Below, piece by piece: positions 5,922-23,241 of a stretch of DNA of 39,517 bases. The DNA is taken from positions 1 through 39,517 of IMG/VR virus record IMGVR_UViG_3300009154_000109, one strand, 5' to 3'. The position numbers were made by a program, and so were the translations under genes. Within the stretch, counting starts at the first letter, position 1. Each line of letters starts with the position of its first letter. A model generated the notes under the pieces. It was not told where the DNA came from, did not search any database, and saw only the letters and a list, made by a program, of their open reading frames with translations. This stretch comes from a virus.

Positions 5922-5949
5922 TACTTAGTTAGTTTTTTAAAATAGTCAA
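5922..5949 (-). promoter_or_regulatory. Promoter candidate before portal gene, -35 overlapping terL stop
   Basis: On the minus strand TTGACT (5949-5944) contains the TGA stop of the terminase gene. After 16 bases comes TAAGTA (5927-5922), then six bases to the portal ATG at 5915. The gap from the -35 box to the ATG is 28 bases, the same as before the genes starting at 17908 and 36901, which would make the mRNA leaderless or nearly so. The -10 box is weak. Confidence 0.45.
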
Positions 5950-7562
5950 TAAGAACCTCCGCCAATTGGTTTATAGGAATTTTCATCTTCATATGACGGG
6001 TTCATTACCGCAAGATACCTCAAAGCATCGATTGGGTCTTTGGCTGCACCTTTGTCTCCGTCTCCGCCAGTCCACTCACGCATTGAGTAAATTAGGTTTT
6101 GACATCTTTCAGAAATATACAGTTTGGGTTTGTTGACCATTGATATCGGTTGTGACTGATTATAATACAACCAGTCGTTTAAAATTGCAATACCTTGGTC
6201 AATCTTGATACCAGACGAAGGGGTAAAGGTCATTGGGTTCTTTCCAGAGTCTAGCAACTCAATCAAACTAGTGCCTCCTTCATTTGTAATAAGTTGGGAA
6301 GCACCAGCACGAGGGTCAATGTAACGCTCGGTCACGCTTTCTCCGTTTTCAAGTTCAAGGATTAACTCTTTGTATTCTTCGATGCCCCGCCCCGCACCAG
6401 ACCTTTGAGCAGGTCCTTCACGACCATCAACTTTTGAATCAGGTAACGCCCACTCGCCGTAAGAGTCGTCTGGAAACTCCCTATAAACGACGATATCGCC
6501 TTCTTTCGTGACTTTTGCCCACAGCAGGAACCAGTTTCTGGCTCCAGCAGGGTCGCACGAAAAGAATATAGTACCTTCTTTCGGGACGCTGGTTTCTGGT
6601 ATAATGTGCGTTTCGCTGAACATCGGGAATTGTGACCCGACGAGTGCTTGTGCCCATCCGTATGCTCTGATTTTTTTTTCATAGTCTGTTTTAGATTCAA
6701 GTTGTTTGACCATTTGGTCGAAAGGTGAATATACATTAAATTTTGAGTGAAACCAAATCACCCCGCCAGTTTTATTTCTGGCATTTGCTGTATATGGCAT
6801 ATGCCCCCTAGGGCACCCAGGCACATGGATTAAATGTTGTGGTAATATATCGGCTTTTTTAGTTTTTGTGATAGAACATCCACTAATATACTCTTTTACT
6901 ACCTGCGAAAACCCATTGATTGGAGTAAATGTAACTAATAACTTACCTCTTCGTGTCAATATGCGATAACGCAAGGTTTGCACCCAGTCAAGTGGTACTA
7001 ATTCGTCGCACCAAATGAAATCTGGCTCTCCGCCCTCAATAACTACCTTGTCTTGCGAGTAATTCATGAAAATACATTGACTTCCATTAGGCAAAACAAA
7101 CGAATTGTTAGAAAACCCGTTCTTCAAAGAGTATTGTATGTTTGTTATTCTGCCTTTTTTTGTATTTTTAAGTTCTAATGGAATATATTTCCACAAAACA
7201 TTTTGTTGCATCTGAATTGATGACATAGATGTTGTGTGAATGCACCACACAATTGCACCCGGCTTATTGACTAATGTAAAGATTGCTCGCTTGGCTGCAT
7301 ATTCTGTCTTACCAGCACGATTTCCACCAAGAATTAACAGTTCGTCTTTGTCTTTTAGGATTTCGTCTGCGTCTTTCCAATGAAATGGCTCATATCCGTG
7401 ACGATATGGGTCTTCTTTTTCTGCTTTAATCTTGTCTTCACGCAGTTGAATCAGTTCAGTAACCTGTTCAACACCTTTTTCTTTAATTAAATTTCGTAAT
7501 TGCTCTTCCGTTGGCTTTATTAACAACGGATGGTCGCTCATTTTTTGTAGTATGTCGTTCAT
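5946..7562 (-). CDS. terL: Terminase large subunit
   Basis: This 538-aa packaging motor has an N-terminal ATPase domain with Walker A GGNRAGKT (residues 79-86) and Walker B FIWCDE (182-187, with the catalytic Glu), then an RNase H-like nuclease domain with Asp residues in FFSCDPAG (D337), RYIDPRAG (D416) and KDPIDALRY (D512). The domain order and length match intact phage large terminases. The ATG overlaps the stop of the 484-aa gene upstream. No small terminase is obvious next to it; the HTH protein at 16977-17426 or the 139-aa protein at 9576-9995 could serve, but this is speculative. Confidence 0.93.
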   Translation of the reverse strand: MNDILQKMSDHPLLIKPTEEQLRNLIKEKGVEQVTELIQLREDKIKAEKEDPYRHGYEPFHWKDADEILKDKDELLILGGNRAGKTEYAAKRAIFTLVNKPGAIVWCIHTTSMSSIQMQQNVLWKYIPLELKNTKKGRITNIQYSLKNGFSNNSFVLPNGSQCIFMNYSQDKVVIEGGEPDFIWCDELVPLDWVQTLRYRILTRRGKLLVTFTPINGFSQVVKEYISGCSITKTKKADILPQHLIHVPGCPRGHMPYTANARNKTGGVIWFHSKFNVYSPFDQMVKQLESKTDYEKKIRAYGWAQALVGSQFPMFSETHIIPETSVPKEGTIFFSCDPAGARNWFLLWAKVTKEGDIVVYREFPDDSYGEWALPDSKVDGREGPAQRSGAGRGIEEYKELILELENGESVTERYIDPRAGASQLITNEGGTSLIELLDSGKNPMTFTPSSGIKIDQGIAILNDWLYYNQSQPISMVNKPKLYISERCQNLIYSMREWTGGDGDKGAAKDPIDALRYLAVMNPSYEDENSYKPIGGGSY

Positions 7563-9357: not shown

Positions 9358-9583
9358 GAATATGTTTTGCTCCTCTTGCTGACATCTTTGATGAAGATGT
9401 TAGCAACGCTTTCAATTTTGCAGGTGATTCGCCTTTTGAAAATGCAAAAAGAAACTTTTCTCCCTTAATTTTTGCAAAAACAGTACCTTCAACACCATAA
9501 TGTTCCATCATAGCAGAGAAATGTTGACATGCACCCTCTACTTGGTCGGAAATATGGACATTTTTTATAGATTTTTTACGCAT
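9341..9583 (-). CDS. Small protein, unknown function
   Basis: This 80-aa basic protein has the look of a small alpha/beta fold (VEGTVFAKIKGEKFLFAFSKGE in the middle as two strands, shown here only as a description of strand-like hydrophobic alternation). A good Shine-Dalgarno, GAGGA seven bases before the ATG, supports the start at 9583; most genes in the window lack one. It overlaps the preceding gene by eight bases. I do not recognise the family. Confidence 0.65.
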   Translation of the reverse strand: MRKKSIKNVHISDQVEGACQHFSAMMEHYGVEGTVFAKIKGEKFLFAFSKGESPAKLKALLTSSSKMSARGAKHILDNGK

Positions 9584-9995
9584 TTATCTTTCCTCGGTGG
9601 TCAGTTTTAAAAATTGACACCCATCCATCCTTTTTTAACACCACAGGTATCACAGAATTCTTGCGTAATGCAGAAGAATCCCTAACTTTGACAATTTGCA
9701 AGGAATTCCAGCCCTCAATATTGCAAGCCACAATCCTTTTATTGACAAATTTGTTGTGAACCATCGCAGTTAACTTTTTTTCGACAAATTCTTCTTGAAC
9801 TTTTAAGTCCTTCATAGCCATAAGGCGGTCATACCCTTCCTTCGTCCACCAAACTGCCTTACGACCCGCTTTGGACTCCGTTAAAACCCAATCTACATTT
9901 TCTTTGAAGTCTTCAGATGCTCGCATTTTAATTAACCTACTCTTTGTGTAGATATCGTCACTAGCAATTAGGTCATTTTCTTTTATAAAACTCAT
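9576..9995 (-). CDS. Unknown 139-aa protein, first gene of the left late block
   Basis: I chose ATG 9995 (MSFIKEND). The longer frame from a TTG at 10031 begins in the -35 box of a promoter candidate, so it is unlikely. The N-terminal part is charged and may form a small DNA-binding fold (IYTKSRLIKMRASEDFKEN); a BRO-N/Ant-like reading is suggested by 'KENVDWVLTESKAGRK ... WWTKEGYDRL', an alternation of strands and helices with a late basic tail, but the match is weak. It stands beside the iteron-bearing intergenic region, as a regulatory gene might. Confidence 0.65.
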   Translation of the reverse strand: MSFIKENDLIASDDIYTKSRLIKMRASEDFKENVDWVLTESKAGRKAVWWTKEGYDRLMAMKDLKVQEEFVEKKLTAMVHNKFVNKRIVACNIEGWNSLQIVKVRDSSALRKNSVIPVVLKKDGWVSIFKTDHRGKINA

Positions 9996-10003
9996 AGTCG
10001 CAC

Positions 10004-10031
10004 ACCATAAACAACTCGCAGCCATAGTCAA
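10004..10031 (-). promoter_or_regulatory. Promoter candidate for leftward genes next to the iterons
   Basis: On the minus strand TTGACT (10031-10026) and TATGGT (10009-10004) lie 16 bases apart, and ATG 9995 follows after eight bases, giving a near-leaderless transcript. The first 16-bp iteron begins 14 bases upstream of the -35 box, so a protein bound there could affect this promoter. Confidence 0.45.
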
Positions 10032-10044
10032 CTAATAATCCCCC

Positions 10045-10163
10045 GCCAGTTTTTAGCCACAACCCTTTATTATACCTATTACTATAACCTATTACTATAT
10101 GTGCCAGTTTTCAGACACCCCCCCCGCCAGAAAATAGACACCCCCCCGGCAAAATATTGCCAC
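10045..10163 (+). repeat. Iteron cluster with AT-rich tandem repeat, candidate origin or operator
   Basis: Four 16-bp units of the form GCCAG-WWWW-Y-AG-M-CAC lie at 10045-10060, 10103-10118, 10126-10141 and 10148-10163 (the last diverged, GGCAA...TGCCAC), separated by runs of C. Between the first and second units is a perfect tandem 13-bp repeat, CCTATTACTATA plus one base, at 10075-10087 and 10088-10100. The same 16-bp unit occurs at least twice inside the initiator-like gene near 19000, next to a related AT-rich repeat. GC-rich initiator sites beside AT-rich 13-mers are the usual plan of theta-type origins. Replication function is inferred. Confidence 0.7.
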
Positions 10164-10323
10164 CCACCATCCCTTTTTGTAAAAAAATTGTCTGTGTTGT
10201 AATGAAGCACGATTTTGCGGTTTTTTTTTCCTCTATATTCCCCCCCACCCCCCATTTTATTGTAAAAAAGATGTAAATCTTCACCTTACCCCTAAAATAG
10301 TTACCCTATTTTCCTATTAGGGC
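10164..10323. other. Intergenic stretch with homopolymer runs and hairpins
   Basis: No gene is visible. It holds a run of nine T and runs of C, a small hairpin with AAGAT/ATCTT arms near 10268-10281 that on the minus strand is followed by T residues (a weak terminator candidate), and a 7-bp hairpin with AAAATAG/CTATTTT arms near 10295-10313. Together with the iterons it forms the divergent control region between leftward late genes and rightward small genes. Confidence 0.4.
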
Positions 10324-10351
10324 TTGTAAAAAGGCAAAGGGTGTGTATTAT
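10324..10351 (+). promoter_or_regulatory. Promoter candidate for rightward small genes
   Basis: TTGTAA (10324-10329) and TATTAT (10346-10351) are 16 bases apart. Transcription would begin near 10358, leaving a leader of about 135 bases before the ATG at 10493. This long leader contrasts with the near-leaderless promoters elsewhere in the window. Confidence 0.4.
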
Positions 10352-10400
10352 TATAGATGTTCGGTTAATCGTTCTTCGAAAGTCTAAAAAGCCCCATAAG

Positions 10401-10454
10401 CCCCCTAAACTAACTAAATGGGGGTTTCAAGGTTGCAAGCCCTGTCGGGTTTGC
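10401..10454 (+). promoter_or_regulatory. Structured 5' leader with two hairpins
   Basis: Two hairpins follow each other in the leader of the 109-aa gene: CCCCC/GGGGG arms around a 14-base loop (10401-10424), and GCAAGCCC/GGGTTTGC with a four-base TGTC loop (10435-10454, one G-U pair). No T-run follows, so these are more likely to influence translation or RNA stability than to terminate. No known riboswitch was recognised. Confidence 0.35.
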
Positions 10455-10492
10455 AGGCAATCAAAAGGCATTAAGTACGGACGCTTAAAGTT

Positions 10493-10822
10493 ATGGCAAA
10501 TGTTAATATTAACCTGCTTATGCAGGCGAGCGGTTTGCAGGCGGAACACCCGACTGCTGAAGGTAAAGCGAGCATTAAGGCAACTGCCGTACTGCTTAAA
10601 ACTAGTAAGAACGGCGTAGCAGTTATTGAACTGACCGCTAAAAAGAACTGCGGAACTATCGGTTACTTGTTAATCAATGTAACTGATTTTAGAGAAAATA
10701 AAGACACCGCAGGTCTAGTGTTCTGGAAAGACAAGCGAGACAAAGCGACACTAGAAAAGATGGTCAATGCCCACGGAGCGACACTAGGTCTAGAATCGGT
10801 CAAACCGAAACCAGCCAAGTAA
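10493..10822 (+). CDS. Unknown 109-aa protein
   Basis: This basic protein begins MANVNINLLMQ and alternates hydrophobic and small residues in a way that suggests a beta-rich fold up to about residue 70 (ATAVLLKTSKNGVAVIEL, TIGYLLINVTDF), then a basic C-terminal tail ending KPKPAK. It has no signal peptide, cysteine pair or enzyme motif. It uses GCG, CGC and GGC-containing codons more than most virion genes, so it may differ in origin. It is transcribed away from the iterons and stands alone with the basic gene downstream. Confidence 0.6.
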   Translation: MANVNINLLMQASGLQAEHPTAEGKASIKATAVLLKTSKNGVAVIELTAKKNCGTIGYLLINVTDFRENKDTAGLVFWKDKRDKATLEKMVNAHGATLGLESVKPKPAK

Positions 10823-10836
10823 GCCCAATAGGAAAG

Positions 10837-10850
10837 CCCCCGAAAGGGGG
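10837..10850 (+). other. GAAA-tetraloop hairpin between two small genes
   Basis: CCCCC (10837-10841), GAAA, GGGGG (10846-10850) form a very stable five-pair stem with a GNRA tetraloop. There is no T-run, so it is probably not a terminator. It lies 14 bases after the stop of the 109-aa gene and may protect mRNA or modulate expression of the downstream gene. Confidence 0.5.
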
Positions 10851-10879
10851 TGAGTACTATCACTTTCCACCCACCCAAT

Positions 10880-11128
10880 AAAATGAAAAGATACTACAAA
10901 CCCACCCTATACTACAACACCCTCAAGTCTAAAAAGCGTATAAAACGCTTTCGCTTGATACAAACCCAAGCCCTAAAAGACCTGCGAAACTCAACCAGCC
11001 CGTTATGGCACATTGACCGCCTTAAGTTAAAATCTAAGATTGTCAAAGCCCAACGCTCTATTGACCTAGCGAAAATGCACGAAAAGCGAATCAAAGCATT
11101 TAAGAAATGGTTTAAAGCCAACCGATAA
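10880..11128 (+). CDS. Small very basic protein, unknown function
   Basis: From ATG 10880 (MKRYYKPT) this encodes 82 residues; a GTG at 10850 would add ten but starts in the hairpin. It is rich in Lys, Arg and Tyr, with helical C-terminal half (KSKIVKAQRSIDLAKMHEKR), and would bind nucleic acid non-specifically if made. No Shine-Dalgarno is seen before either start. Strong hairpins follow the stop codon, in line with the end of a transcription unit. Confidence 0.5.
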   Translation, partial: KMKRYYKPTLYYNTLKSKKRIKRFRLIQTQALKDLRNSTSPLWHIDRLKLKSKIVKAQRSIDLAKMHEKRIKAFKKWFKANR

Positions 11129-11141
11129 CAACCGCCGGACT

Positions 11142-11162
11142 CCCCAGGACAACCTCCTGGGG
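11142..11162 (+). terminator. GC-rich hairpin after rightward small genes
   Basis: CCCCAGGA (11142-11149) pairs perfectly with TCCTGGGG (11155-11162) around a five-base loop. It lies 13 bases after the stop of the basic 82-aa gene. The sequence after it is G-rich rather than T-rich, so termination may depend on the second hairpin at 11175. Confidence 0.45.
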
Positions 11163-11174
11163 GGGGTCGGTCGT

Positions 11175-11202
11175 GATAGTGACCATCTTGATGGTCACTA
11201 TC
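11175..11202. terminator. Perfect 13-bp inverted repeat between converging units
   Basis: GATAGTGACCATC (11175-11187) and its exact reverse complement (11190-11202) are separated by two bases. It sits between the rightward small genes and the leftward amidotransferase gene. A pyrimidine-rich stretch follows on the plus strand. It may be a bidirectional terminator; a cruciform or operator site is also possible because the palindrome is nearly uninterrupted. Confidence 0.5.
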
Positions 11203-11469
11203 ATTCCTTCTATTCCTACATTCCTACTTTTACAAGGTTTGTAGTGTTTATAGGTTCCTCCTATTCCTATTTCACTACCAAACTTATCGCACTTATAGCC
11301 CTTCGTATTCGCCTTTTTCAAGTTTCCTTGTATTCCTTGTGTTTCATATTTAACAACCTTCCTTCAATATCTATTGGCATTTGTAATCCTACAATACTTG
11401 TGTTCCGGGAACCGGTAGGTTTGCAAGTTTCCTTAAAATTTTTAATTCCTACGGAATCTATAATGCTAC
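11203..11469. other. Gene-free AT-rich spacer downstream of amidotransferase
   Basis: No convincing gene: frames here are short and cross the hairpins. The stretch is made of repeated short words such as ATTCCTA, TTTCCTTG and TTGCAAGTTTCC, and contains a TCCGGGAACCGG element at 11403-11414. The same vocabulary reappears in the spacer at 14231-14756, which suggests that both flanks belong to the same module. Confidence 0.4.
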
Positions 11470-11507
11470 AAAAAAACCCCCACTACTATTTCTAGTAATG
11501 GAGGTTT
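11470..11507 (-). terminator. Rho-independent terminator of the amidotransferase gene
   Basis: On the minus strand a 15-pair stem (AAACCTCCATTACTA against TAGTAGTGGGGGTTT, two G-U pairs) closes a GAAA tetraloop (11492-11489) and runs into seven T. It lies 23 bases after the stop of the amidotransferase gene. This is a textbook intrinsic terminator. Confidence 0.85.
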
Positions 11508-11529
11508 GCAAGTTTACTTGTATTTTAGT

Positions 11530-12642
11530 TTATCGAGTATCCTTGTAGGGGTTGTATTTCTTGCGAGCGTTCTTTTTGTAGTTTGCCATCATTTCTGCTT
11601 TATGAGTATCAAACGCTTTCTTGTCTAAGTCGGATTGGGAGGTTCCTACTAATGGGAGGGTCGTTTGAGTTGGAGTACTGGGAGTACTGGGAGTAATGGG
11701 AGTAGCACTTCCACCAATCCGTTCACGAGAATAGTAGTCATAGTCGTAATCGTCCCATGCTCGTGATTGGTACTTTTCTGTATATCCTTTTGCTCCTGCT
11801 GAACCTAGCGAAGTATACATACTTGCAGTACTAATATACGGAGATGTTGAAGAAAACTCCTCAAAGTAGTTTGAGTCGATTTCTCCTGATGCTTTGAAAG
11901 TATGTTTTACAAACTTCTCAAGCATAACAGGTTCTGTATAAGTCTCGTTCTTCAAGTTATAGAAGGACGCTATAAGTACTGCCAGTTGGATACAATGGGA
12001 GGAATCGGTGCAAATGATAAATGTCTCCAGTTGCTTCATATAGGAGATATACAAGGGGGCTTTATTATCTCGTAAGACAAACAAATCTCCCGATGGATTC
12101 AATCCTACAATCGCCGCATAACCACTAATATGTTCTTTAAAAGAATGCTCCCCTTTCAAGTACATAAAGCAATTTAGTAAATGCTCGGAATCACAGGTTG
12201 TACGCAATGGGAGTTTATCGCCTTTCCAAGCAACAATACCATTGTGAGCAATATGCCATTCCTTGTCATCTATATTTCCTGAGAATGGGTGAGTATTAGA
12301 AATCACCTTATCACAAGTTGCAGTACGACCATGAGCAATGAAGTTTCCTTTTAAAACTCCTTTACTAGGATATACACCTTTGGAGTCAAAGTCGACTCCT
12401 TGCTTTTCTAGTGTTAGTAGATTTGCAGGTAAAGAGTCAATACTGCGTTTCATAGTACCCATACCTTTGCAGGAACTGGGGTTAATGAAGCGTTCTGTAT
12501 AAACTCCCGTTTGATGTTTAAGAGAATAACCGAATCCGTCCTTTTGGGAGAGTCCGAGTAATTCTGCCGATTTGGAGACAAGTGCCGATGCTTGTTTCGT
12601 AGATTTAAGAGTAAGACCACTAATTGCGATTAACTTGCACAT
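11530..12642 (-). CDS. Class II glutamine amidotransferase
   Basis: This 370-aa protein has the N-terminal nucleophile hydrolase domain that releases ammonia from glutamine. The catalytic Cys is residue 2 (MCKLIAISG), exposed after Met removal. Supporting motifs are DGFG (35-38), HGRTAT (104-109), NTHPF (116-120), HNG (133-135) and CDSE (150-153), in the family order. The C-terminal 100 residues are different: Ser/Tyr/Asp-rich, with a TPITPSTPSTPTQT linker (about 315-330) and a basic end. There is no synthetase or isomerase domain, so the ammonia must serve a separate partner. The amidoligase gene immediately upstream is the obvious one. A strong terminator follows. Confidence 0.85.
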   Translation of the reverse strand: MCKLIAISGLTLKSTKQASALVSKSAELLGLSQKDGFGYSLKHQTGVYTERFINPSSCKGMGTMKRSIDSLPANLLTLEKQGVDFDSKGVYPSKGVLKGNFIAHGRTATCDKVISNTHPFSGNIDDKEWHIAHNGIVAWKGDKLPLRTTCDSEHLLNCFMYLKGEHSFKEHISGYAAIVGLNPSGDLFVLRDNKAPLYISYMKQLETFIICTDSSHCIQLAVLIASFYNLKNETYTEPVMLEKFVKHTFKASGEIDSNYFEEFSSTSPYISTASMYTSLGSAGAKGYTEKYQSRAWDDYDYDYYSRERIGGSATPITPSTPSTPTQTTLPLVGTSQSDLDKKAFDTHKAEMMANYKKNARKKYNPYKDTR

Positions 12643-12670
12643 AGTATTTTGTAGTTTTAGAAGTTTTCCG

Positions 12671-12703
12671 GGATTAGGAGGATCGAAATAACCCTCCTAA
12701 TCC
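12671..12703 (-). terminator. Perfect 11-bp hairpin between amidoligase and amidotransferase genes
   Basis: GGATTAGGAGG (12671-12681) and CCTCCTAATCC (12693-12703) pair perfectly around an 11-base loop. It lies seven bases after the amidoligase stop. On the minus strand no long T-run follows, so it may attenuate read-through or act on mRNA stability rather than stop transcription fully. One of only two GATC sites in the window lies at the stem-loop edge (12681-12684). Confidence 0.55.
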
Positions 12704-12709
12704 TAGGAA

Positions 12710-14230
12710 TTATTCTAAACTCCCTTCTACTGCTTGTATCGCTTCCTTGTATTTATCCAAATTGTTGATATCTGGTAAACCTTCTTTAAGGTAGGATTGG
12801 TGGAACTTAAGCATACGCTTAAATATATAAACCTTGATTTCGGGCGAACAATCGGATTGCATAAAATCATCGAATGTCGCAATACTTGCACCAGGAGATA
12901 CGCAGTATTCCAAGAATCCTACCCATAACTTCAATTTGTAGAAATTCAAGGTTGCCATGCCTACTCGTACTTCTATCGTTCCGAAGCGACGGAAGGGTAA
13001 CAAGTTTACTGCCGTATACTTGTTATTCAAGTGTTCTCGGAATACTCCACAATACTGATTGTAGGAACGCTTGTGATGCAAGGAACGATGTGCCCAATCT
13101 TTTAGTGCTTGTCGGAGTTTATTAGCAACACGAGAAACCTGCTGACTGGAGCGTCCTCGCATATCTAGGTGTACATGGTTTCCACAAGAACTATTAACAC
13201 GAGCACCAGCACCATTCATAGTATCGAGAACTTCCTTGAGATTCTTCCAATCCTCAGGAGACTTCCCATTCATGAAATAGGTCATTTCTTGGAATCGTGG
13301 TAATGCGTCATCACTTGCAATCGTGTTAATGGAGGAATCTCCCTTAAAGTGTAAAAAACGCTTTTTAGGATAATCACCAGAACTCCATTTCATCATATCG
13401 GAGTTATTCTCGGAAAGGAACTCTAATTCTATTCCTAAACAACTTCCACTAGGACGAAACTTATTTGCTACCAATAATTCCATTGGGCGTAAATTACCAT
13501 ACCAGTTAAGAGGAGAAAGACCAGAAGTCGCCACATTATCTAAAGCATCTGATACTTTATCTTTAAGGTTCTTACAATTAGGAGTATTGCGAGAACGCTC
13601 AAGTTTCTTCACATCACGCTGATGGCTAATATGCGTTAATGCTCGTACTACTACAGATACATAATCTTGGTGAATATCTATAAAACGATAGATTAAACCA
13701 GAATCAGAATACTTGTAAGTCTTGAAGAACTTGTTATCCACCAATTCCTCAATTACTCCCGAAACGCAATCTGGTGTAGTTACTTGTAAACAATCTCGCG
13801 AAAGTTTACTTGCGAAATCGTTAGAGTCGTGAATCATATTTGCTTGCGTTTCTCGTGTCATACCAATGTATGAAAGGAGAGACATCTGCCGATTGTCGTC
13901 TCGCAAGGTTATGGAGGAATTGGAGCAATAGTCTAATGCTTTTACTCGCACTAAAAACTCTGAAAGCGATAATGCTCCCATTGCTCGTGTTGGGTGGAAG
14001 TATCGTGTTCCTTCTAAAGCCATCTTTAGGAGGGGAACATTATTTCGAGAACTAGGAGGCATGGTGTTAAACCACGCAACCTTAGTTTCGAGAGTTTTGT
14101 TAGTAAATCCAAAGTAGTGGACTGCTTTCTTTACGAATAATGCTTGCTGTATAGCAATGCGAGTATTCGCTGAAAGTATCAACTTCTTAGATACTTCTGA
14201 GGTTAATAATGCAAGAATATGAGGGTTCAT
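12710..14230 (-). CDS. COOH-NH2 amidoligase family protein
   Basis: This 506-aa protein shows the glutamine synthetase-like fold of the amidoligase family (Amidoligase_2) in its C-terminal half: LGIELEF (265-271), GDSSI (297-301), a Glu in FQEMTYF (315), CGNHVHLD (349-356) and FGTIEVRVG (416-424). Members are predicted to join a carboxylate and an amine or ammonia using ATP, and are often paired with a class II amidotransferase. The N-terminal 250 residues are helical and not recognised; they may bind the substrate. The gene is followed by the amidotransferase gene after a 67-base gap with a hairpin. The substrate is unknown: small peptide, protein side chain or cell-wall component. Confidence 0.82.
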   Translation of the reverse strand: MNPHILALLTSEVSKKLILSANTRIAIQQALFVKKAVHYFGFTNKTLETKVAWFNTMPPSSRNNVPLLKMALEGTRYFHPTRAMGALSLSEFLVRVKALDYCSNSSITLRDDNRQMSLLSYIGMTRETQANMIHDSNDFASKLSRDCLQVTTPDCVSGVIEELVDNKFFKTYKYSDSGLIYRFIDIHQDYVSVVVRALTHISHQRDVKKLERSRNTPNCKNLKDKVSDALDNVATSGLSPLNWYGNLRPMELLVANKFRPSGSCLGIELEFLSENNSDMMKWSSGDYPKKRFLHFKGDSSINTIASDDALPRFQEMTYFMNGKSPEDWKNLKEVLDTMNGAGARVNSSCGNHVHLDMRGRSSQQVSRVANKLRQALKDWAHRSLHHKRSYNQYCGVFREHLNNKYTAVNLLPFRRFGTIEVRVGMATLNFYKLKLWVGFLEYCVSPGASIATFDDFMQSDCSPEIKVYIFKRMLKFHQSYLKEGLPDINNLDKYKEAIQAVEGSLE

Positions 14231-14756
14231 ATGATTGTTAGGTTTGTATGTTTTGTTAGTTTTTTAGGTACTTGTTTACGCTTCCATTCCATAGATTACA
14301 AGTTTCCTCCCGACACAAGATTACTTGTGAGAGGTAGGAGACTCGTAGTTTTAGTAGTAGAAGTTTCAACACTCCCTATCCTAGCGACCCTCCCGAAAGT
14401 GGCGATACAATTCTTTTTTATTTTTACAAGTAAACTTCTAAAACTCCTACACTTCCGGGACTACTAATACAAGTCCAGGCAGCGTTATAAGTTATAGTAG
14501 AATACTTTGATTGTTAGGATTGTAGGATTACAAGTCCGGTGATAGTTCTACAAATCCTATAAATCTAATAAAACCGGGATCGAAGTATCTATAGAAAACT
14601 ACTGATACAGAAATACTTGTAATCCTAAAATACTTGAACCGGTGGAATCCTTGAAATCGAGAAATCGATTTATTTGGAAAACGATTTATCTAAACACAAA
14701 ACTTTTTCCGACCCGTGGATATATATCCACTATCATACATTTCACTATCATACATT
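14231..14756. other. Gene-free spacer upstream of amidoligase with repeated ACTTGT motif
   Basis: I find no convincing gene. Seven exact copies of ACTTGT or its complement ACAAGT lie at 14270, 14298, 14323, 14426, 14469, 14530 and 14615 (first base given), often extended as TTACTTGT or ACTTGTAA. CCGG or TCCCGG words and a second GATC (14578-14581) also occur. At the right end are two tandem 15-bp repeats, CACTATCATACATTT (14728-14742, 14743-14757), and a perfect 16-bp palindrome GTGGATATATATCCAC (14715-14730). The region probably holds the amidoligase promoter, but no clear TTGACA/TATAAT pair was found. Confidence 0.55.
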
Positions 14757-14924
14757 TCATTTTGGTTGGTTTAATTTAGTTTTGAGTTCAATGTTTTCCT
14801 TGCGGAGATTTTCATTGGTTGTGATTAGCAACTCTAACCAATTTTCATATTCCACAAACATCATTTTTAATTTTGTTCGTGCAATACCTTTTTGGTAATC
14901 TGTAACTTCGTATGGTTCGCTCAT
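14757..14924 (-). CDS. Small coiled-coil protein, 55 aa
   Basis: A frame from ATG 14924 to TGA 14757 encodes 55 residues starting MSEPYEVTDYQKG. The C-terminal half looks like a short coiled coil (LLITTNENLRKENIELKTKL). The ATG overlaps the stop of the 103-aa gene upstream as ATGA, which supports real translation as the last gene of the unit. Function unknown. Confidence 0.6.
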   Translation of the reverse strand: MSEPYEVTDYQKGIARTKLKMMFVEYENWLELLITTNENLRKENIELKTKLNQPK

Positions 14925-15232
14925 TTGCTATTTTTTACGAATGGTGCAATTACTGAATCAATATTTTGATATTGGAATGGTCGTTCCTCTGCAACAATAA
15001 CGGTGTCGTAATTGTCGTTATCGTCGTCGTAAAACTTGCAATCATATACCTTGTTGGCAAATGATTTAGCATTATTAAGAATCTCTGGCATATTGATTTC
15101 GTAGTAAAGGTCTGAGCAACCCTTATCTCCAAACATATAGATTGGGTGACAAGACAATGCAGACATACTGCATTTAGTTGGGTCAGACTTGTCTTTAGCA
15201 AGTTTGTATATTGTTATGTAGTTAATTTTCAT
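14921..15232 (-). CDS. Small protein of the leftward early block, unknown function
   Basis: This 103-aa acidic protein begins MKINYITIYKLAKDK and overlaps both neighbours by four bases. It has an Asp-rich stretch (KFYDDDNDNYDTV) near residue 70 and four Cys scattered without a zinc-finger spacing. The pattern of strands suggests a small alpha/beta fold. I do not recognise the family. Confidence 0.65.
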   Translation of the reverse strand: MKINYITIYKLAKDKSDPTKCSMSALSCHPIYMFGDKGCSDLYYEINMPEILNNAKSFANKVYDCKFYDDDNDNYDTVIVAEERPFQYQNIDSVIAPFVKNSK

Positions 15233-15741
15233 TTTTTGTTTTGGTTTTTGTGGTAGTAGTGAAAGATTTGTTTTCCGTTAACATATGTTGATTCATATGA
15301 ATCCCATAAGTCCATTTCATTGATTGCTTCAATGTCAAATACGAGTTCTCCATATACAAGTGACACATTTTGTATCCATTGTAAAGGAGCATTACAACGA
15401 GTTTTAAATGAGAATACAACCTTGTCTACTGATTCTTCGTCAATTTGTGGTGAGACTACATCGTATGGTACACCCCATTCTTTATAGGTGAATTCAAACA
15501 TATTTCGGAATCCACACAGGGTATAGTTGTCTTTGTATGTTTCTTCATCACAAGATGTGAATGTATCAATTAAGCAGTTTGGTATTTCGTAAATAGAATT
15601 AAGCGTCAATGGCGAGCCATCGTCTAAATCCTTAACTTCTTCGATAAACGAATACAACGAGTGTTGTGTTTGCTTACATTTGATATTACCAGCACTTACA
15701 GTCAAAGTGCAGTATGCCCAGTCATTTGTTGGTGTGCTCAT
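15229..15741 (-). CDS. Protein resembling DUF1281/YubB ferredoxin-like family
   Basis: I chose ATG 15741 (MSTPTNDWAY), four bases after the previous stop, giving 170 aa. The opening WAYCTLTVSAGN and the later VVFSFKTRCNAPLQWIQNVS followed by YGELVFDIEAINE resemble the strand pattern of the YubB/DUF1281 family found on plasmids and phages, in which an aromatic-Thr-Trp-x-Pro-Pro type segment precedes a Leu-rich helix. The match is by eye and partial. Function of that family is not established. It overlaps the next gene by four bases. Confidence 0.6.
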   Translation of the reverse strand: MSTPTNDWAYCTLTVSAGNIKCKQTQHSLYSFIEEVKDLDDGSPLTLNSIYEIPNCLIDTFTSCDEETYKDNYTLCGFRNMFEFTYKEWGVPYDVVSPQIDEESVDKVVFSFKTRCNAPLQWIQNVSLVYGELVFDIEAINEMDLWDSYESTYVNGKQIFHYYHKNQNKK

Positions 15742-15745
15742 TGTA

Positions 15746-15964
15746 TTAGTACCAAGGCGAGTTGTTGTATGCTTTCCAATCGTATGCGTCATATGACTTA
15801 TTTTCTAAGTCAGCCATAACAGATGTGCGAGCAAGAAAAGCAAGTGCATCTTTTTGTTGTTTCTCTGTTGGTACTTCACCGCCAAAATATTTGTCGATGA
15901 GTTCCTTGTGTTTTTCTAATAAAGATTCGGTTAACGAATCCTCTGGTAGTTCTTCTGGTTTCAT
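15746..15964 (-). CDS. Small acidic helical protein, 72 aa
   Basis: The protein begins MKPEELPEDSLTESLLEK, is acidic, and appears to be two or three helices with no motif. It is the first gene after a 168-base gap and four bases ahead of the next gene. Function unknown. Confidence 0.6.
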   Translation of the reverse strand: MKPEELPEDSLTESLLEKHKELIDKYFGGEVPTEKQQKDALAFLARTSVMADLENKSYDAYDWKAYNNSPWY

Positions 15965-16132
15965 TGTTGTTTTATTTGTTGTGTCAGATTTATACGATGG
16001 CTAACTGAGTGTTACTTTCGTCCCTTTGCTCATTGCATCAAGAACCATCGTGTTCAATCTAGTGGAGTTCTAAGTTCCACTATTGGTGACAAGGTGTAAT
16101 ATACTATGTTTTATTTAGTATGCAAGTATAAT
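15965..16132. other. Intergenic gap with hairpin
   Basis: No gene is visible. A hairpin with GTGGA/TCCAC arms lies at 16062-16080. On the minus strand the hairpin is directly followed by TAGATTGA, a word also found in the two late promoter candidates, but no -35 box at the correct distance was found. A promoter or partial terminator for the 15964 gene is possible. Confidence 0.35.
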
Positions 16133-16549
16133 TTAGATATTTCGTAAAATATGTTGAAGTACTTGTTGGCGAACAGTCATTTCGTGATTATCAAACGACA
16201 TAGCAAATGTATGTACGATTGAGTCAACTAATGCAGGATTCTTTAATCGAAGTTCTGCAATCTTTACGAAACACTTGCGTTGCAATTCATATGCAATAAC
16301 AACTTTTGAACGAGTTGTTAGTTTTTCTAAGTTGTGGGTTTGACGAAGATTTGGTTCTTGTGCAAGTCGGATGTAAACTCCTAATACTTGGAATTTAGAT
16401 TGAGATGCATTTGCAAAATCTGTGTCGTCAATAAACAAACTAGCAAATCGAGCAGACTCTCGGCTGGTTAACGATTTTACAGTAGCGTATTTGTATGCGG
16501 TTAGATTTTTAATCTCGTCCGTGATTTTTTTATGTTTTGTTGGGTTCAT
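16133..16549 (-). CDS. Unknown 138-aa basic helical protein
   Basis: The protein starts MNPTKHKKITDEIKNLTAY and looks all-helical, with regular Leu/Val spacing and few Gly or Pro. No motif is recognised. Its ATG overlaps the stop of the gene before it (ATGA), so they are translated as a pair. A role in early host takeover or regulation is possible because of its place downstream of the HTH gene, but there is no direct evidence. Confidence 0.65.
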   Translation of the reverse strand: MNPTKHKKITDEIKNLTAYKYATVKSLTSRESARFASLFIDDTDFANASQSKFQVLGVYIRLAQEPNLRQTHNLEKLTTRSKVVIAYELQRKCFVKIAELRLKNPALVDSIVHTFAMSFDNHEMTVRQQVLQHILRNI

Positions 16550-16965
16550 TTTTTCTTTTTGTTTTTGTTGTTTTTGTTGGGCTTTTTGATTGATTTTGTA
16601 ACTTTAACAGATTCTTCGTTAATGTCAATGCCTTTTTGTAAAAGAATTTTTGTGATACGAATCTTTTCTCCGTTTTCGATTTCTTCTGTTAAGATATTAC
16701 TTTTTCGTAACATATCGCAACCTTGCTCATATAGTTCGGTGAATTGTACATAATCCTTTGCTAAGGAAAATACGGTTAACAATCCGTATTGTGGTAATCC
16801 GCAGTCGTATTCACCTTGATGAATAAGTTGCATCAATCGCCAAGCGTCTGTGCGGGAGATTAGACCATCTGAAAACAAGTTTAGTAACTTGATTGGGTCA
16901 TCTTCGGTTAATATGTCGGTGTTGAGTACATAAGAGTACTCGTCATTGTTGTTGTTGTTGTTCAT
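16546..16965 (-). CDS. Unknown 139-aa protein with Asn-rich ends
   Basis: The N-terminus is a run of Asn (MNNNNNNDEY) and the C-terminus is Lys/Asn-rich (KPNKNNKNKKKK); the middle is acidic and helical (PIKLLNLFSDGLISRTDAWRL). No known motif. It lies 11 bases after the HTH gene and overlaps the 138-aa gene by four bases. Function unknown. Confidence 0.65.
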   Translation of the reverse strand: MNNNNNNDEYSYVLNTDILTEDDPIKLLNLFSDGLISRTDAWRLMQLIHQGEYDCGLPQYGLLTVFSLAKDYVQFTELYEQGCDMLRKSNILTEEIENGEKIRITKILLQKGIDINEESVKVTKSIKKPNKNNKNKKKK

Positions 16966-16976
16966 TGTGGGAAAAG

Positions 16977-17426
16977 TTAAGTATCTAGTGTTATATCTGT
17001 ATTCTTTTTTTCGTCAAGTATAAATTGTTTATTTAATTCGTCTTGGGTAATTGTTAGTCGTGTTGAAACTGTTATTGTTGGTGTATCTTGTAAATCACGC
17101 ACCTTGTCAATAGCGATTGCTAAAGCCATTGGAAGTTGTCCAAGCGGAACATTATCTATTTCGTTGCTGAGTCGTTCTGCACCTTTCTTAACAAAGTTAG
17201 CAAGAAGTCCAGATACCTCTTTTTTCCAAGAGCCAAGTTCTAGTTTGCCTTCTTCTTCCATTGATTGCCTTACTGCAACAACCGTTTCTTTCCTTACTTT
17301 ACAAAGTTTAGCGGTTTCCTGACAATTTTTGCCGTCTAACATTAGATTTTCTATAATTTCCCTTTTCATAGCAGGAAGTTTTTTTGCTGGGTTATTTAGA
17401 CTTTCATTATTTGCTTGATATTCCAT
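16977..17426 (-). CDS. HTH DNA-binding protein, possible regulator or small terminase
   Basis: I chose ATG 17426 (MEYQANNES), giving 149 aa; longer frames run into the divergent RusA gene and begin in a promoter -35 box. An N-terminal helix-turn-helix is visible (KREIIENLMLDGKNCQETAK then VRKETVVAVRQSM, about residues 21-55), followed by a helical part with LPMALAIAIDKVRDLQ near residue 100, a pattern known from small phage HTH proteins, some of them terminase small subunits. It is the first gene of the leftward early block, divergent from the recombination block, where a regulator would be expected. The choice between regulator and small terminase is open. Confidence 0.65.
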   Translation of the reverse strand: MEYQANNESLNNPAKKLPAMKREIIENLMLDGKNCQETAKLCKVRKETVVAVRQSMEEEGKLELGSWKKEVSGLLANFVKKGAERLSNEIDNVPLGQLPMALAIAIDKVRDLQDTPTITVSTRLTITQDELNKQFILDEKKNTDITLDT

Positions 17427-17446
17427 AAATTTAGTATTTGTTAACA

Positions 17447-17474
17447 ATATGAATTCCATTTTACTAAATGTCAA
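17447..17474 (-). promoter_or_regulatory. Promoter for the leftward HTH gene, inside the start of the RusA gene
   Basis: On the minus strand TTGACA (17474-17469) and TCATAT (17452-17447) are 16 bases apart. The -10 box covers the ATG of the divergent RusA gene. Transcription should begin near 17440, about 14 bases before ATG 17426. Confidence 0.5.
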
Positions 17475-17877
17475 TATTATTCCGACTCGTACTACACATC
17501 AATCCGCCCTGCGTATCTTGAAGGGTAAGGGGGGTAAGATGTTTGTTGGCAAGTACCAGAAGTCAGAGTTTAGGGCTTGGTTAGAGGAATTCAAGTTAAA
17601 GATTAAAAAAAGCGTTCCTACCGAACCATTAGCCGGTCCAATTGAGGCAGAAATAGAGTTTTACTTCCCTTACAATAAATCAGCATCTGATAAATTAAAG
17701 GAAACTGAATCTTGGAAGGTTACACGACCAGACCTTGATAATATGGAAAAGTCAATTTTTGATTGTTTAACAGATATGGGGTTCATTGAAGATGATTCTC
17801 TTATATGCCGAAAAATAAGCATAAAAAGGTATTCTCCAAAACCGCGAATCTTTATTAAATTAACTAAAATTACTTGA
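17449..17877 (+). CDS. rusA: RusA-family Holliday junction resolvase
   Basis: This 142-aa enzyme cuts Holliday junctions made during phage recombination and replication. The family signature is clear: RPDLDN (93-98), a following helix KSIFDCLTDMG, and EDD (114-116), which supply the acidic residues that bind magnesium. The length fits the family. It is the first gene of the rightward block and stands with an exonuclease and an ERF annealing protein, together a recombination set. Its start codon lies 22 bases from the start of the divergent HTH gene. Its stop codon is part of the next promoter's -35 box. Confidence 0.9.
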   Translation: MNSILLNVNIIPTRTTHQSALRILKGKGGKMFVGKYQKSEFRAWLEEFKLKIKKSVPTEPLAGPIEAEIEFYFPYNKSASDKLKETESWKVTRPDLDNMEKSIFDCLTDMGFIEDDSLICRKISIKRYSPKPRIFIKLTKIT

Positions 17878-17901
17878 CAAGGTTATATGTAGTGTAAATA
17901 T
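17874..17901 (+). promoter_or_regulatory. Promoter for exonuclease and replication genes, -35 overlapping rusA stop
   Basis: TTGACA (17874-17879) contains the TGA stop of rusA. TAAATA (17895-17900, 15-base spacing) or AAATAT (17896-17901, 16-base spacing) can be the -10 box. The ATG follows at 17908, exactly 28 bases after the -35 box, so the mRNA would be almost leaderless. Confidence 0.55.
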
Positions 17902-17907
17902 GGGTAC

Positions 17908-18705
17908 ATGTACCCAACAAATACGATACTCAATAACATTAGCGATGAAGAATACTTGAAGATTGATGCTATAAACTATTCATCATTAAAGAAGTTTATG
18001 GTGAGCCCAAAGCATTACAAGTATTCACAAGAAGATAAAGCACTAGATACTAAAGAAGCATTTAATGTTGGTCGTGCTATTCACCACCTTGCTTTAAAGC
18101 CAGACACTTTCAATGATAACTGGATTGTTTCTCCTGTATGCGATAAGCGTACTAAAGACGGCAAACAAGCATACCAAGATTTTTTAGATTCATCTAATGG
18201 TAAGAGTGTTCTTGCACCAGATGAATTTGAAGTGGTTTCTAATTGTGGTAAAGCGTTACTCAATAACCATTACTTTCGTTATTTCCTTGGAAATGGAATA
18301 GTGCATAAAGAATGCGTAATCATTACTGAATATGCTGGTGTTAAAATTAAAGGACGACTTGATGCATTTAATGAAACACTAAATATTGTTATGGATATTA
18401 AATCATTTAATAAACCACCTGAACAAATGGAAGTTGTACGAGAAATTTTTAATCGTAAGTATAATTATCAAGCATTTCTTTATCGTATTCTTGCAAAATC
18501 TATTACTAATGAATTGCCTAAGTTTCAATGGGCTTTCATTGAGAAGCAATCTCCCAATGCAGTTGCTTGGTATGAGTATTCTGACCGATTGGTTTCAGAG
18601 GATTCAGTAGAAAATATTGAGGAATCGTTATGCCGATTCTTTAACGCAAAAGAAAATGACGAATGGGCTGGACTTCCAAGTGAGAATATTCCTATTATAT
18701 TGTGA
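17908..18705 (+). CDS. PD-(D/E)XK exonuclease, exodeoxyribonuclease VIII-like
   Basis: This 265-aa RecB-type nuclease probably resects double-strand ends for the ERF annealing protein encoded downstream. Visible motifs are GRAIHH (55-60), KGRLD (148-152), DIKS (163-166, the D-x-K core) and QAFLY (188-192, the Q-x-x-x-Y motif), in the order expected for this nuclease family. The N-terminal part has the usual NYSSLKKF helix. The stop codon overlaps the next ATG by one base (TGATG). No Shine-Dalgarno is visible. Confidence 0.87.
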   Translation: MYPTNTILNNISDEEYLKIDAINYSSLKKFMVSPKHYKYSQEDKALDTKEAFNVGRAIHHLALKPDTFNDNWIVSPVCDKRTKDGKQAYQDFLDSSNGKSVLAPDEFEVVSNCGKALLNNHYFRYFLGNGIVHKECVIITEYAGVKIKGRLDAFNETLNIVMDIKSFNKPPEQMEVVREIFNRKYNYQAFLYRILAKSITNELPKFQWAFIEKQSPNAVAWYEYSDRLVSEDSVENIEESLCRFFNAKENDEWAGLPSENIPIIL

Positions 18706-19364
18706 TGAGCAACAATCAATTCTCTGGTGTATTTATTCCTCGTGAAGTTTTATTAGACGAAGATATTTCTGCGTCTGGTAAAATCATATTCGCAATCATT
18801 CAGTCGTTGGATAACGACAAGGGGTGCTTTGCGTCTAATGATTACATCGGTAAGAGTTTGAATCTTTCTGAGTCTGCGGTTCGTCATTCGATTGCTGACC
18901 TTGAGCGTAAAAAGTATTTAATTCGTTCCATAGATGAAAATGGTAATCGTACTATTCGTACCTGTACGACTGCTTCTCTTTCTGGAGATGACCGCCAGAA
19001 ATCAGACACCACCCTGTCTGAAAACAAGCGTACCCCCCGCCAGAAAACAGCCACATATAGTAATAAGGATAATAATAGTAATAAGATACAGGGAATGTTA
19101 TTACCACCAATTCCTTTTGATGATGAATTTGCAAACCTATGGGTCAACTGGTGTGAATATCGAAAAGAACGAAAAAAGCCGTTGACAAACCAAACGGTTA
19201 AATTACAACTAGAATTTCTAACAACACTAAACAAAAATGACGCAACCAACTCAATTCTCAACTCTATTAAACACGGCTGGCTTGGACTCTTTGCTCCGAC
19301 AAGCAAAGGAAGTTCCTATTCAAGCAAAGCCCCACTTACCGAAGATGACCACGGCACTTTTTAA
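18705..19364 (+). CDS. Lambda O-like replication initiator with winged-helix domain
   Basis: From ATG 18705 this encodes 219 aa. Residues about 5-80 form a winged helix-turn-helix (SGVFIPREVLLDEDIS, then YIGKSLNLSESAVRHSIADL), as in phage replication proteins of the O/DnaD-like type. The middle region (about 95-125) is translated from DNA repeats, visible as RQKSDTT and PRQKTAT. The C-terminal part (about 140-200) is helical with Trp residues (FANLWVNWCEYRK), a usual partner-binding region. The DNA-loader gene overlaps its 3' end. Iterons inside the initiator gene plus a loader downstream copy the lambda O-P-ori plan. It is predicted to bind the 16-bp repeats. Confidence 0.78.
   Translation: MSNNQFSGVFIPREVLLDEDISASGKIIFAIIQSLDNDKGCFASNDYIGKSLNLSESAVRHSIADLERKKYLIRSIDENGNRTIRTCTTASLSGDDRQKSDTTLSENKRTPRQKTATYSNKDNNSNKIQGMLLPPIPFDDEFANLWVNWCEYRKERKKPLTNQTVKLQLEFLTTLNKNDATNSILNSIKHGWLGLFAPTSKGSSYSSKAPLTEDDHGTF
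18994..19085 (+). repeat. Iterons and AT-rich repeats inside the initiator gene, candidate origin
   Basis: Two clear 16-bp units of the GCCAG-WWWW/Y-AG-M-CAC type lie at 18994-19009 and 19039-19054, with a diverged unit between them (19016-19031) and C-runs between units. An AT-rich stretch follows with ATAGTAATAAG at 19057-19067 and again at 19075-19085 (18-base period). The 12 bases next to the last unit, CACATATAGTAA, are the exact complement of those beside the second unit at 10103, where the related 13-bp AT repeats lie. This is the plan of a lambda-type origin within the initiator gene. Confidence 0.72.
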
Positions 19365-20010
19365 ATGTGATTGTGGTGGTCTGCGTTATCCAATGACTGA
19401 TGGAAAGAAAATCATCTGGAATGACCTTTACTGCCCATCTTGTGAAAGCAAGTATAACGATGGTCGCTTCCGTGACCTAAAGTGGGCTATAGGGGCTATT
19501 GGAGTACCCTTAGAGTACCAAGGAACAGTCATTGACAAGATTCCTTGTGCCAAGATGCGTGATGTTGCTTCCAACTGGAGTAACTGGGGAACACGCTCAT
19601 TGCTATTACACGGAACTACTCGTGTTGGCAAGACTCGTGCCGCTTGGGAGGTTTACAAGCGTTGGTGGACAACACATTACAAGAAGCAAACATATGCTAC
19701 AATGCGAATCTTCGAGAAGAACATTGAGGAGGGCTTTGAGAAGTTTGACCACAACAAGCGTGTGCAGTCATTGATAAATGTTCCATTTTTGTTCATTGAC
19801 GATTTAGGCAAAGAAAAGACAACTCAACGAGTAGCGTGTGACTTGTTTGCCGTGATAGACGAGCGTACTATTAACCATCGTCCCACAATTATTACAACTA
19901 ACCACAATTCATCGAATTTGCTTGACCGCTTTGAAGATAAGGAATTAGGTCAAGCACTCATTGGTCGCTTTGCCGACTACTTTGATAAAGTTGGAGCAAC
20001 CTCAAAATAA
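19237..20010 (+). CDS. DnaC-like helicase loader ATPase
   Basis: This protein should load the host replicative helicase at the phage origin. From ATG 19237 it has 257 aa: a Cys cluster (C44, C46, C66, C69) likely to bind zinc, Walker A GTTRVGKT (126-133), Walker B FLFIDD (184-189) and a sensor-like IITTNHN (218-224), as in DnaC/IstB-type AAA+ proteins. Starting at 19237 means a 128-base overlap with the initiator gene; ATG 19345 would leave 221 aa with the zinc cluster intact and reduce the overlap to 20 bases. Neither has a clear Shine-Dalgarno, so the start is uncertain. No helicase or polymerase gene is present, so host enzymes are needed. Confidence 0.85.
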   Translation: MTQPTQFSTLLNTAGLDSLLRQAKEVPIQAKPHLPKMTTALFKCDCGGLRYPMTDGKKIIWNDLYCPSCESKYNDGRFRDLKWAIGAIGVPLEYQGTVIDKIPCAKMRDVASNWSNWGTRSLLLHGTTRVGKTRAAWEVYKRWWTTHYKKQTYATMRIFEKNIEEGFEKFDHNKRVQSLINVPFLFIDDLGKEKTTQRVACDLFAVIDERTINHRPTIITTNHNSSNLLDRFEDKELGQALIGRFADYFDKVGATSK

Positions 20011-20029
20011 TTTAAAATAACACTTGACT

Positions 20030-20866
20030 ATGAAATATAAACCAGAACAATACACATCCTCAACCAATATTATGAACAACGAAAATCAAATCACCGACCC
20101 ATATTATAAAAATCGTGCAGTACTGCACACAGCATTAGTTAAGGCGATTGCCGAGACTCAAGATGTTGTTGCAGACAGCACTAATCCATTCCACAAAAAT
20201 AAGTATGCGTCATTAAACGCACACCTGTCTGTGGTAAAACCAATCTTTGCTAAACACGGATTGGCAGTAGTTCAGTTTCCATCAAGCGATGAAAAATCGA
20301 TTGGTGTAACTACAACAATTATTCACGAATGCGGTTCGCAACTTATGGATTCAATTCACATTCCTGTTTCTGACTCAATTACTGGTCAACAAGCAGGAGC
20401 AATTATTTCTTACTTGCGTCGTTACGCATTAGCATCTGTTGCTGGTATTGCAACTGAAGATGATGATGCCGAAACAGACCGCATTCAGCGAGCACCTTCT
20501 GGCAGTTCAAAACCTCAGTCCATCGCAAATCATGTAGTGCGAGTTAGCAATGAATCCTCAACAGGTACATTGGGAACTGTTAATTTTGAACTGCCAGTAC
20601 CATTTGGAGACGCAAAGGGAACTAAGTTAAATGAGTTGCCTCTTAAAAATACAGACCGAAGTCTTAAGTGTGCTGATTTAAGTTATTGGGCTAAAGTATG
20701 GACTCCTAAACCATTCGGAACTTCCACTAAGATTAGTCAGCGTGACTTAGACTTTAAGGCATCTGCACAAGCATTATATGCTATGAAAAATGCAGAGTCT
20801 AATGGAGATACTACTCCTAAGTTTGAACCAGCACAAGAGGAAACTCAGGACGAAATACCCTTCTAA
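20030..20866 (+). CDS. ERF-family single-strand annealing protein with extra C-terminal segment
   Basis: This 278-aa protein has an ERF domain in residues about 25-140: NPFHKNKYASLNAHLSVV, GLAVVQF, then GQQAGAIISYLRRYALASVAGIATEDDDA, the family's conserved block. Together with the PD-(D/E)XK exonuclease it forms a recombination pair. After a Ser-rich linker comes a second segment (about 185-255) with PFGDAKGTKLNELP and LSYWAKVW, like the small PFG-x-x-KG motif (DUF3820-type). The protein ends QDEIPF, close to the acidic tip of single-strand DNA-binding proteins. A TTG start two codons upstream is possible; ATG 20072 is also possible. Confidence 0.85.
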   Translation: MKYKPEQYTSSTNIMNNENQITDPYYKNRAVLHTALVKAIAETQDVVADSTNPFHKNKYASLNAHLSVVKPIFAKHGLAVVQFPSSDEKSIGVTTTIIHECGSQLMDSIHIPVSDSITGQQAGAIISYLRRYALASVAGIATEDDDAETDRIQRAPSGSSKPQSIANHVVRVSNESSTGTLGTVNFELPVPFGDAKGTKLNELPLKNTDRSLKCADLSYWAKVWTPKPFGTSTKISQRDLDFKASAQALYAMKNAESNGDTTPKFEPAQEETQDEIPF

Positions 20867-20879
20867 TCCAAGTTACCCC

Positions 20880-20951
20880 AGTCTTGTAGTTCAACGGATA
20901 GAACATCCGCCTTCTAAGCGGAGAATCTAGGTTCGATTCCTAGCAGGACTA
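20880..20951 (+). tRNA. tRNA-Arg (anticodon TCT)
   Basis: The 72-base sequence folds as a cloverleaf: acceptor AGTCTTG (20880-20886) with CAGGACT (20944-20950), one G-U pair; D stem GTTC/GAAC; anticodon stem TCCGC/GCGGA around loop CTTCTAA, anticodon TCT at 20913-20915; T stem CTAGG/CCTAG with loop TTCGATT; discriminator A. The variable loop has four bases and no CCA is encoded. It reads AGA (and AGG by wobble) codons. It lies between the ERF gene and a zinc-ribbon gene in the same direction, so it may be cut from that transcript. Confidence 0.93.
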
Positions 20952-23174: not shown

Positions 23175-23241
23175 AAGCGGTGGTTAGACTAGCCAAGACT
23201 ACCCCAACTGGAAACGACAATGAGCACAACGAACCATAAAC

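Follow-up and report, generated by a model that had tools for sequence, protein, structure and literature searches.

The 39,517-base virus record IMGVR_UViG_3300009154_000109, analysed here as a whole and called the window below, carries two copies of one module composed of short iterons and an AT-rich tail, one in the intergenic region ahead of the terminase operon (locus 1) and the other inside the gene of a putative replication initiator (locus 2). The two-module system is real and conserved; it resembles in its working the oriL/oriR pair of bacteriophage SPP1, uses iterons of the lambda type and, by the tests made, is a member of neither system. Both loci are, with high probability, read by the initiator encoded around locus 2. 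The two modules and the accompanying set of genes were directly observed, as were the conservation of the modules, their covariation and their independence of orientation, while initiator binding, tail melting and the different tasks of the loci are presumed from these observations.

A search of both strands of the whole record with the pattern GCCAGNNNNNAGNCAC returned exactly five matches, all on the plus strand, at positions 10045, 10103, 10126, 18994 and 19039. The claim of the earlier note that the same 16-bp unit occurs at two loci about 9 kb apart is thereby confirmed, while its count of six clear units has to be changed to five clear and two diverged ones (at 10148 and 19016), each of the latter lying 22-23 bp from a good unit. 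With the matrix derived from the five exact units, these units themselves scored 22.5-26.5 bits and the next-best site in the record 12.3 bits, whereas the top sites in eight first-order shuffles reached 12.2-18.0 bits. This genome-wide scan, set beforehand as a check of the claim, found equally good units nowhere else in the record. At locus 1, the unit GCCAGTTTTCAGACAC (10103-10118) adjoins the AT-rich tail and is followed 23 bp on by GCCAGAAAATAGACAC (10126-10141) and a further 22 bp on by the diverged GGCAAAATATTGCCAC (10148-10163), while a fourth, exact unit GCCAGTTTTTAGCCAC (10045-10060) is located beyond the tail. On the minus strand, the diverged third unit reads GGCAATATTTTGCC, which is close to a palindrome. 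Locus 2 comprises GCCAGAAATCAGACAC (18994-19009), the diverged GTCTGAAAACAAGC (19016-19029) and GCCAGAAAACAGCCAC (19039-19054), the last one adjoining the tail; all the units of both loci are given on the plus strand. No Rfam families were detected at locus 1 or locus 2.

The tail of locus 1 (10061-10102, read on the minus strand as ACATATAGTAATAGGTTATAGTAATAGG) and that of locus 2 (19055-19095, plus strand, ATATAGTAATAAGGATAATAATAGTAATAAG) belong to the least stable 0.3% and 0.2% of 40-bp windows, respectively, and both are candidate unwinding elements. They have ACATATAGTAATA in common. The exact 12-mer TTACTATATGTG, which the earlier note had correctly described as present at both loci in opposite orientation, is found at 10092 on the plus strand and at 19052 on the minus strand; its orientation changes with that of the complete module, in which the units come first and the AT tail second and which runs in opposite directions at the two loci. 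What has been copied is the iterons plus the tail, in an order preserved at both places. Both tails step in TAG/TAA (ATA TAG TAA TAA ... TAA TAA TAG TAA TAA), which resembles the DnaA-trio repeats of bacterial origins (PMC6669920), although this is a resemblance only.

The search of viral contigs yielded seven close relatives with initiators 59-85% identical (G001-G007; together with the window they are referred to as group A, all being metagenomic contigs). Units were found at both loci in seven of the seven relatives, 8.4-11.7 kb apart, with only scattered single chance matches elsewhere, and just two loci per genome are present in all eight members of the family; loss of the repeats from both loci of relatives, named in advance as evidence against the proposal, was thus not what the comparison revealed. 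The unit of the relatives is the palindrome GCCAG-WWWW-CTGGC, repeated at a spacing of 22-23 bp with C- or G-run spacers and followed by the AT-rich tail. The usual layout is three units and a tail of about 40-45 bp, locus 1 mostly having a fourth unit past the tail. Read from these sequences, the ancestral form of the unit is palindromic. The right half-unit of the window is YAGMC in five of the five clear units at both loci, i.e., these are half-decayed palindromes, whereas G001, the initiator of which is 85% identical to that of the window, has kept perfect palindromes at both loci. The recognition helix of the initiator (residues ~58-64, encoded at 18873-18893) reads AVRHS in the window, AVRCS in G001 and SVRAS in most other relatives, and this replacement is a candidate cause of the altered right half-site in the units of the window.

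Chance or low-complexity similarity might be suspected, as C-runs and AT repeats are simple sequence; five exact units, their position at two loci in eight of the eight genomes and the background level of the shuffles make this explanation extremely improbable, and the relatives refute it. A scan of the viral-contig collection for two close asymmetric units returned chance matches only, and among the 64 stretches obtained in a palindrome scan real arrays were confined to the known family, the one in contig L126 being due to chance. A nucleotide search of named phages with the window gave no match, and a search of bacterial genomes with the initiator gave no relative. When distant relatives were screened for a second cluster by two generic procedures that assumed no motif, the signal was not separable from the background, and these screens were not used.

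The two copies of the module change their sequence together. The junction between the last unit and the tail is ACCATATAAGACTA at both loci in G003 and G005, ACCATATAGTAATA at both loci in G006 and G007, GACATATAGTA at both loci in G002, and ACATATAGTAATA at both loci in the window and G004; G001, with the junctions ACATATAGTAATA and GTATATAGTAATA, is a partial exception. For the 20-bp AT junction, the mean cross-locus identity was 0.81 within genomes vs 0.50 between genomes, with a permutation P of 0.0006 for eight genomes and 0.008 for six genomes, after thinning of close pairs; since the genomes are related and the comparison was ungapped, so that a one-base insertion weighs heavily, these P values should be taken as guides. 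The last iteron alone displayed no covariation signal like that of the tail junction. The joint change of the two copies suggests that one protein may read both of them.

That the DNA rather than the peptide is under selection follows from the reading frames of the units inside the initiator gene. In the window, G001 and G004, successive units are translated in differing frames (RQK or RQI, xENKR, RQK), and in G002, G003, G006 and G007 they occupy frames 1, 2 and 0 (RQIS or QQKT, PENxR, AGKLA). As the units are translated in two or three frames, it is the DNA word that is conserved; the proposal that the DNA repeat shapes the protein was therefore right, and the case for it is stronger than had been claimed. 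Furthermore, the locus-1 module of G004 has the opposite orientation with respect to the conserved right flank and the neighbouring genes, and inversion between unchanged flanks makes it unlikely that the function of the module depends on its orientation. The inversion, the palindromic ancestral unit and the SPP1 precedent had been missed in the earlier note. An orientation-independent array of the origin's units at a distance is what would be expected if locus 1 were a long-range partner, which pairs with the origin or titrates it by handcuffing or looping, as in iteron plasmids, and thus sets the initiation frequency without being an origin itself. Such an inert pairing site would not need the copied unwinding tail, which is nevertheless kept and covaries, and we regard this explanation as improbable.

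A second group of genomes with both loci was found after the fact and comprises C75C1, L179 and G017 (group B). The circular 39,484-bp genome C75C1 (OQ984151) was reached via its terminase, 33% identical to that of the window; BLAST detects no similarity between its initiator and that of the window, though both proteins touch PHROGs 678 and 428. The unit of C75C1 is a different palindrome, GGGAC-N6-GTCCC, with the 22-bp spacing. The end of its initiator gene bears GGGACAAAAAAGTCCC followed by ACCAATACCAAACAAT, and at the second site, 4.4 kb off, two units 22 bp apart and then ACCTATACCAAACAAT stand immediately ahead of the gene that opens the terminase operon. Matches of at least 14/16 are confined to these two sites and were found in none of 60 shuffles. 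L179 and G017, with initiators 71% and 61% identical to that of C75C1, respectively, have units of their own in the same two places, and the units differ between genomes at both loci. The conserved C-terminal peptide PIPNNEYIYIEPY places some constraint on the copy within the coding sequence. In the alignment of group B, the leader and the start codon are conserved, while the intervening 40 bp of units differ. C75C1 therefore shares with the window the two-locus layout, the 22-bp spacing and the second module heading the terminase operon, and differs from it in the palindrome, in the shorter, BLAST-unrelated initiator and in having its own DnaB-like helicase.

The position of locus 1 beside the terminase genes in both groups could indicate a packaging (pac/cos) or recombination signal, the reader of which would be the terminase rather than the initiator. 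The same module, though, also lies within the initiator gene, and in group B the terminase large subunit encoded beside locus 1 is 93-95% identical, and the genes of the terminase operon are 84-95% identical, while the units differ. Since the units differ and the initiators diverge against the background of a conserved terminase, the reader is more likely the initiator than the terminase, and a packaging signal is very unlikely.

Locus 1 separates the leftward terminase operon, which begins at 10031, from a group of small genes oriented rightward. The operon's first gene (9576-10031, minus strand) has homologues adjoining locus 1 in seven of the seven relatives, i.e., locus 1 adjoins this gene throughout group A, and in C75C1 and its two relatives the units directly precede the start codon of the first gene, after a very conserved leader. 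This arrangement would suit an operator, and the initiator might act at locus 1 mainly as a transcription regulator, which keeps the terminase operon repressed, or sets its timing, until initiator or replicated DNA has accumulated in sufficient amount, with the AT tail being promoter or leader DNA. At the same time, the module is inverted in G004 and its orientation differs between groups A and B, its distance to the start codon ranges from ~15 to 290 bp, no conserved sigma-70-like promoter was recognised, and the AT tail copied along with the iterons is not needed by an operator. We consider regulation as the main role of locus 1 the strongest of the alternatives, yet less likely than not. 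The description of locus 1 as lying beside promoters is weak as well, as no sigma-70-like site above chance was found near it. A very conserved TTGACA-N13-TATACT precedes the module in the leaders of the C75C1 group (L178 at 23180-23216, L179 and L183); it was rejected as a promoter candidate, because its 13-bp spacer misfits sigma-70 and the promoter scan did not report it.

Locus 2 is supported as an origin of the lambda type by its palindromic iterons with an A4 centre, their ~22-bp spacing, the AT tract and the O-like gene in which it lies, and the earlier proposal of an origin inside the initiator gene thereby gains support. The lambda origin within gene O likewise possesses palindromic iterons centred on AAAA at a spacing of 20-24 bp, and an AT tract on one side, in the gene of an O-like winged-helix initiator (PMC7466680); there, however, one iteron cluster is present, vs two in every genome considered here, and the loader is P and not the DnaC/IstB-type AAA+ protein. 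In SPP1, oriL within gene 38 and the intergenic oriR lie 12-13 kb apart, both have repeats and an AT-rich unwinding element, and both are bound by G38P, which on oriR has been proposed to stall forks and thus to initiate concatemer synthesis via a resolvase, an exonuclease and a recombinase (PMC6316719, PMC3485210). The family studied here is similar in that repeats and an AT-rich candidate unwinding element form a putative origin within the initiator gene, that an intergenic site built in the same way lies far from it in eight of the eight genomes, and that a Holliday junction resolvase, an exonuclease and an annealing recombinase (here RusA, PD-(D/E)XK and ERF) are encoded; the SPP1 genome (~44 kb) is also similar in size to those of the relatives. 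Unlike SPP1, the iterons are lambda-like palindromes, the second module heads the terminase operon, and instead of a DnaB-family helicase with a G39P-type loader, a DnaC/IstB-type loader is encoded and no phage replicative helicase was found among the 30 open reading frames (ORFs) searched in the window. The system thus appears to work like that of SPP1 and, lacking this helicase and loader pair, is not filed as an SPP1-type replicon. One initiator with the same repeats at two separated cis sites (ori and crr) is also known in satellite phage P4, the alpha protein of which is a primase-helicase and the crr of which is not known to lie beside terminase genes.

Considering these comparisons, the following mechanism may be proposed. 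The initiator would bind both copies of the module, each with ~14-bp palindromic iterons 22-23 bp apart and an easily melted AT tail, and the copy within its own gene would be the main, lambda-type origin. Filling of the iterons by the initiator would open the tail, whereupon the DnaC-type loader would bring the host helicase. Locus 1, heading the leftward terminase operon, would act like SPP1 oriR, serving as an origin used late, as a barrier of bound protein to the forks, or as both, and together with RusA, the exonuclease and ERF would turn replication of circles into replication of concatemers for packaging. An oriR-like role of locus 1 is favoured, with restrained confidence, by the fact that the same three activities as in the SPP1 switch are encoded around the initiator, and such a role is compatible with control of the terminase operon. 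Several points weigh against the proposed scheme: the GC-skew check gave no clean origin signal, the helicase is absent from the ORFs searched, gene conversion between the copies could yield part of the covariation without selection, and locus 1 heads the terminase operon in both groups, as would also suit an operator.

The initiator (HTH_36; PHROG 678, O-like, by domain and PHROG matches), encoded at 18702-19364 on the plus strand, comprises 220 residues from the GTG at 18702, rather than the 219 reported before. It also matches other replication-initiation PHROGs. Its AlphaFold model (mean pLDDT 63, modest) contains a winged helix at residues ~10-88, a disordered linker at 89-132, which is encoded by the iterons and the tail, and a helical C-domain; a fold search with this model gave weak winged-helix/DnaD-like matches only, none under an E value of 0.001. 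The gene of the DnaC/IstB-type helicase loader (19237-20010, plus strand) overlaps the end of the initiator gene out of frame by ~127 bp (19237-19364), and a similar overlap occurs in the relatives according to the loader start found by tblastn. The initiator and loader genes also contain the arms of an inverted repeat (18800-18816 and 19384-19400), which are 17 nt long, 94% complementary and separated by 567 nt. The genes of the RusA-type Holliday junction resolvase (17449-17877) and the PD-(D/E)XK exonuclease (PHROG 412, DUF3799; 17908-18705) precede the initiator, and that of the ERF single-strand annealing protein (20024-20866) follows the loader, all on the plus strand; a tRNA-Arg gene (TCT anticodon, 20880-20951) is situated within the same replication operon. 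The terminase large subunit (PHROG 2) is encoded at 5946-7562 on the minus strand. Between the modules, at 11530-14230, a gene resembling class-II glutamine amidotransferases (GATase) stands beside an amidoligase-like gene; the pair is kept in all the relatives, and C75C1, too, has an amidoligase gene close to its locus 1. Synteny across group A extends to the genes of the GATase, amidoligase, RusA, exonuclease, initiator and loader.

Paired origins under one initiator have been detailed for SPP1, although what the second site does there has so far been described by a model only. In two groups with BLAST-unrelated initiators, we find the second site maintained as a full copy of the module that can be inverted, lies at the terminase operon and diverges together with the site in the initiator gene. 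As a tentative generalization, which we think rather unlikely to hold in full, the initiators of a broad set of phages might each recognise an iteron word of their own in just two positions, namely in the initiator gene and at the front of the terminase operon, and thereby tie the mode of replication to packaging. Since this word evolves rapidly and simultaneously at the two sites while the terminase is still 93-95% identical, the paired sites would act as replication-specificity groups keeping co-infecting relatives from each other's initiator, comparable, if this is true, to immunity or incompatibility groups. The paired modules would offer an evolutionary handle on the switch of phage DNA replication from circles to concatemers, for which the genomes described here supply natural variant pairs for swap tests.

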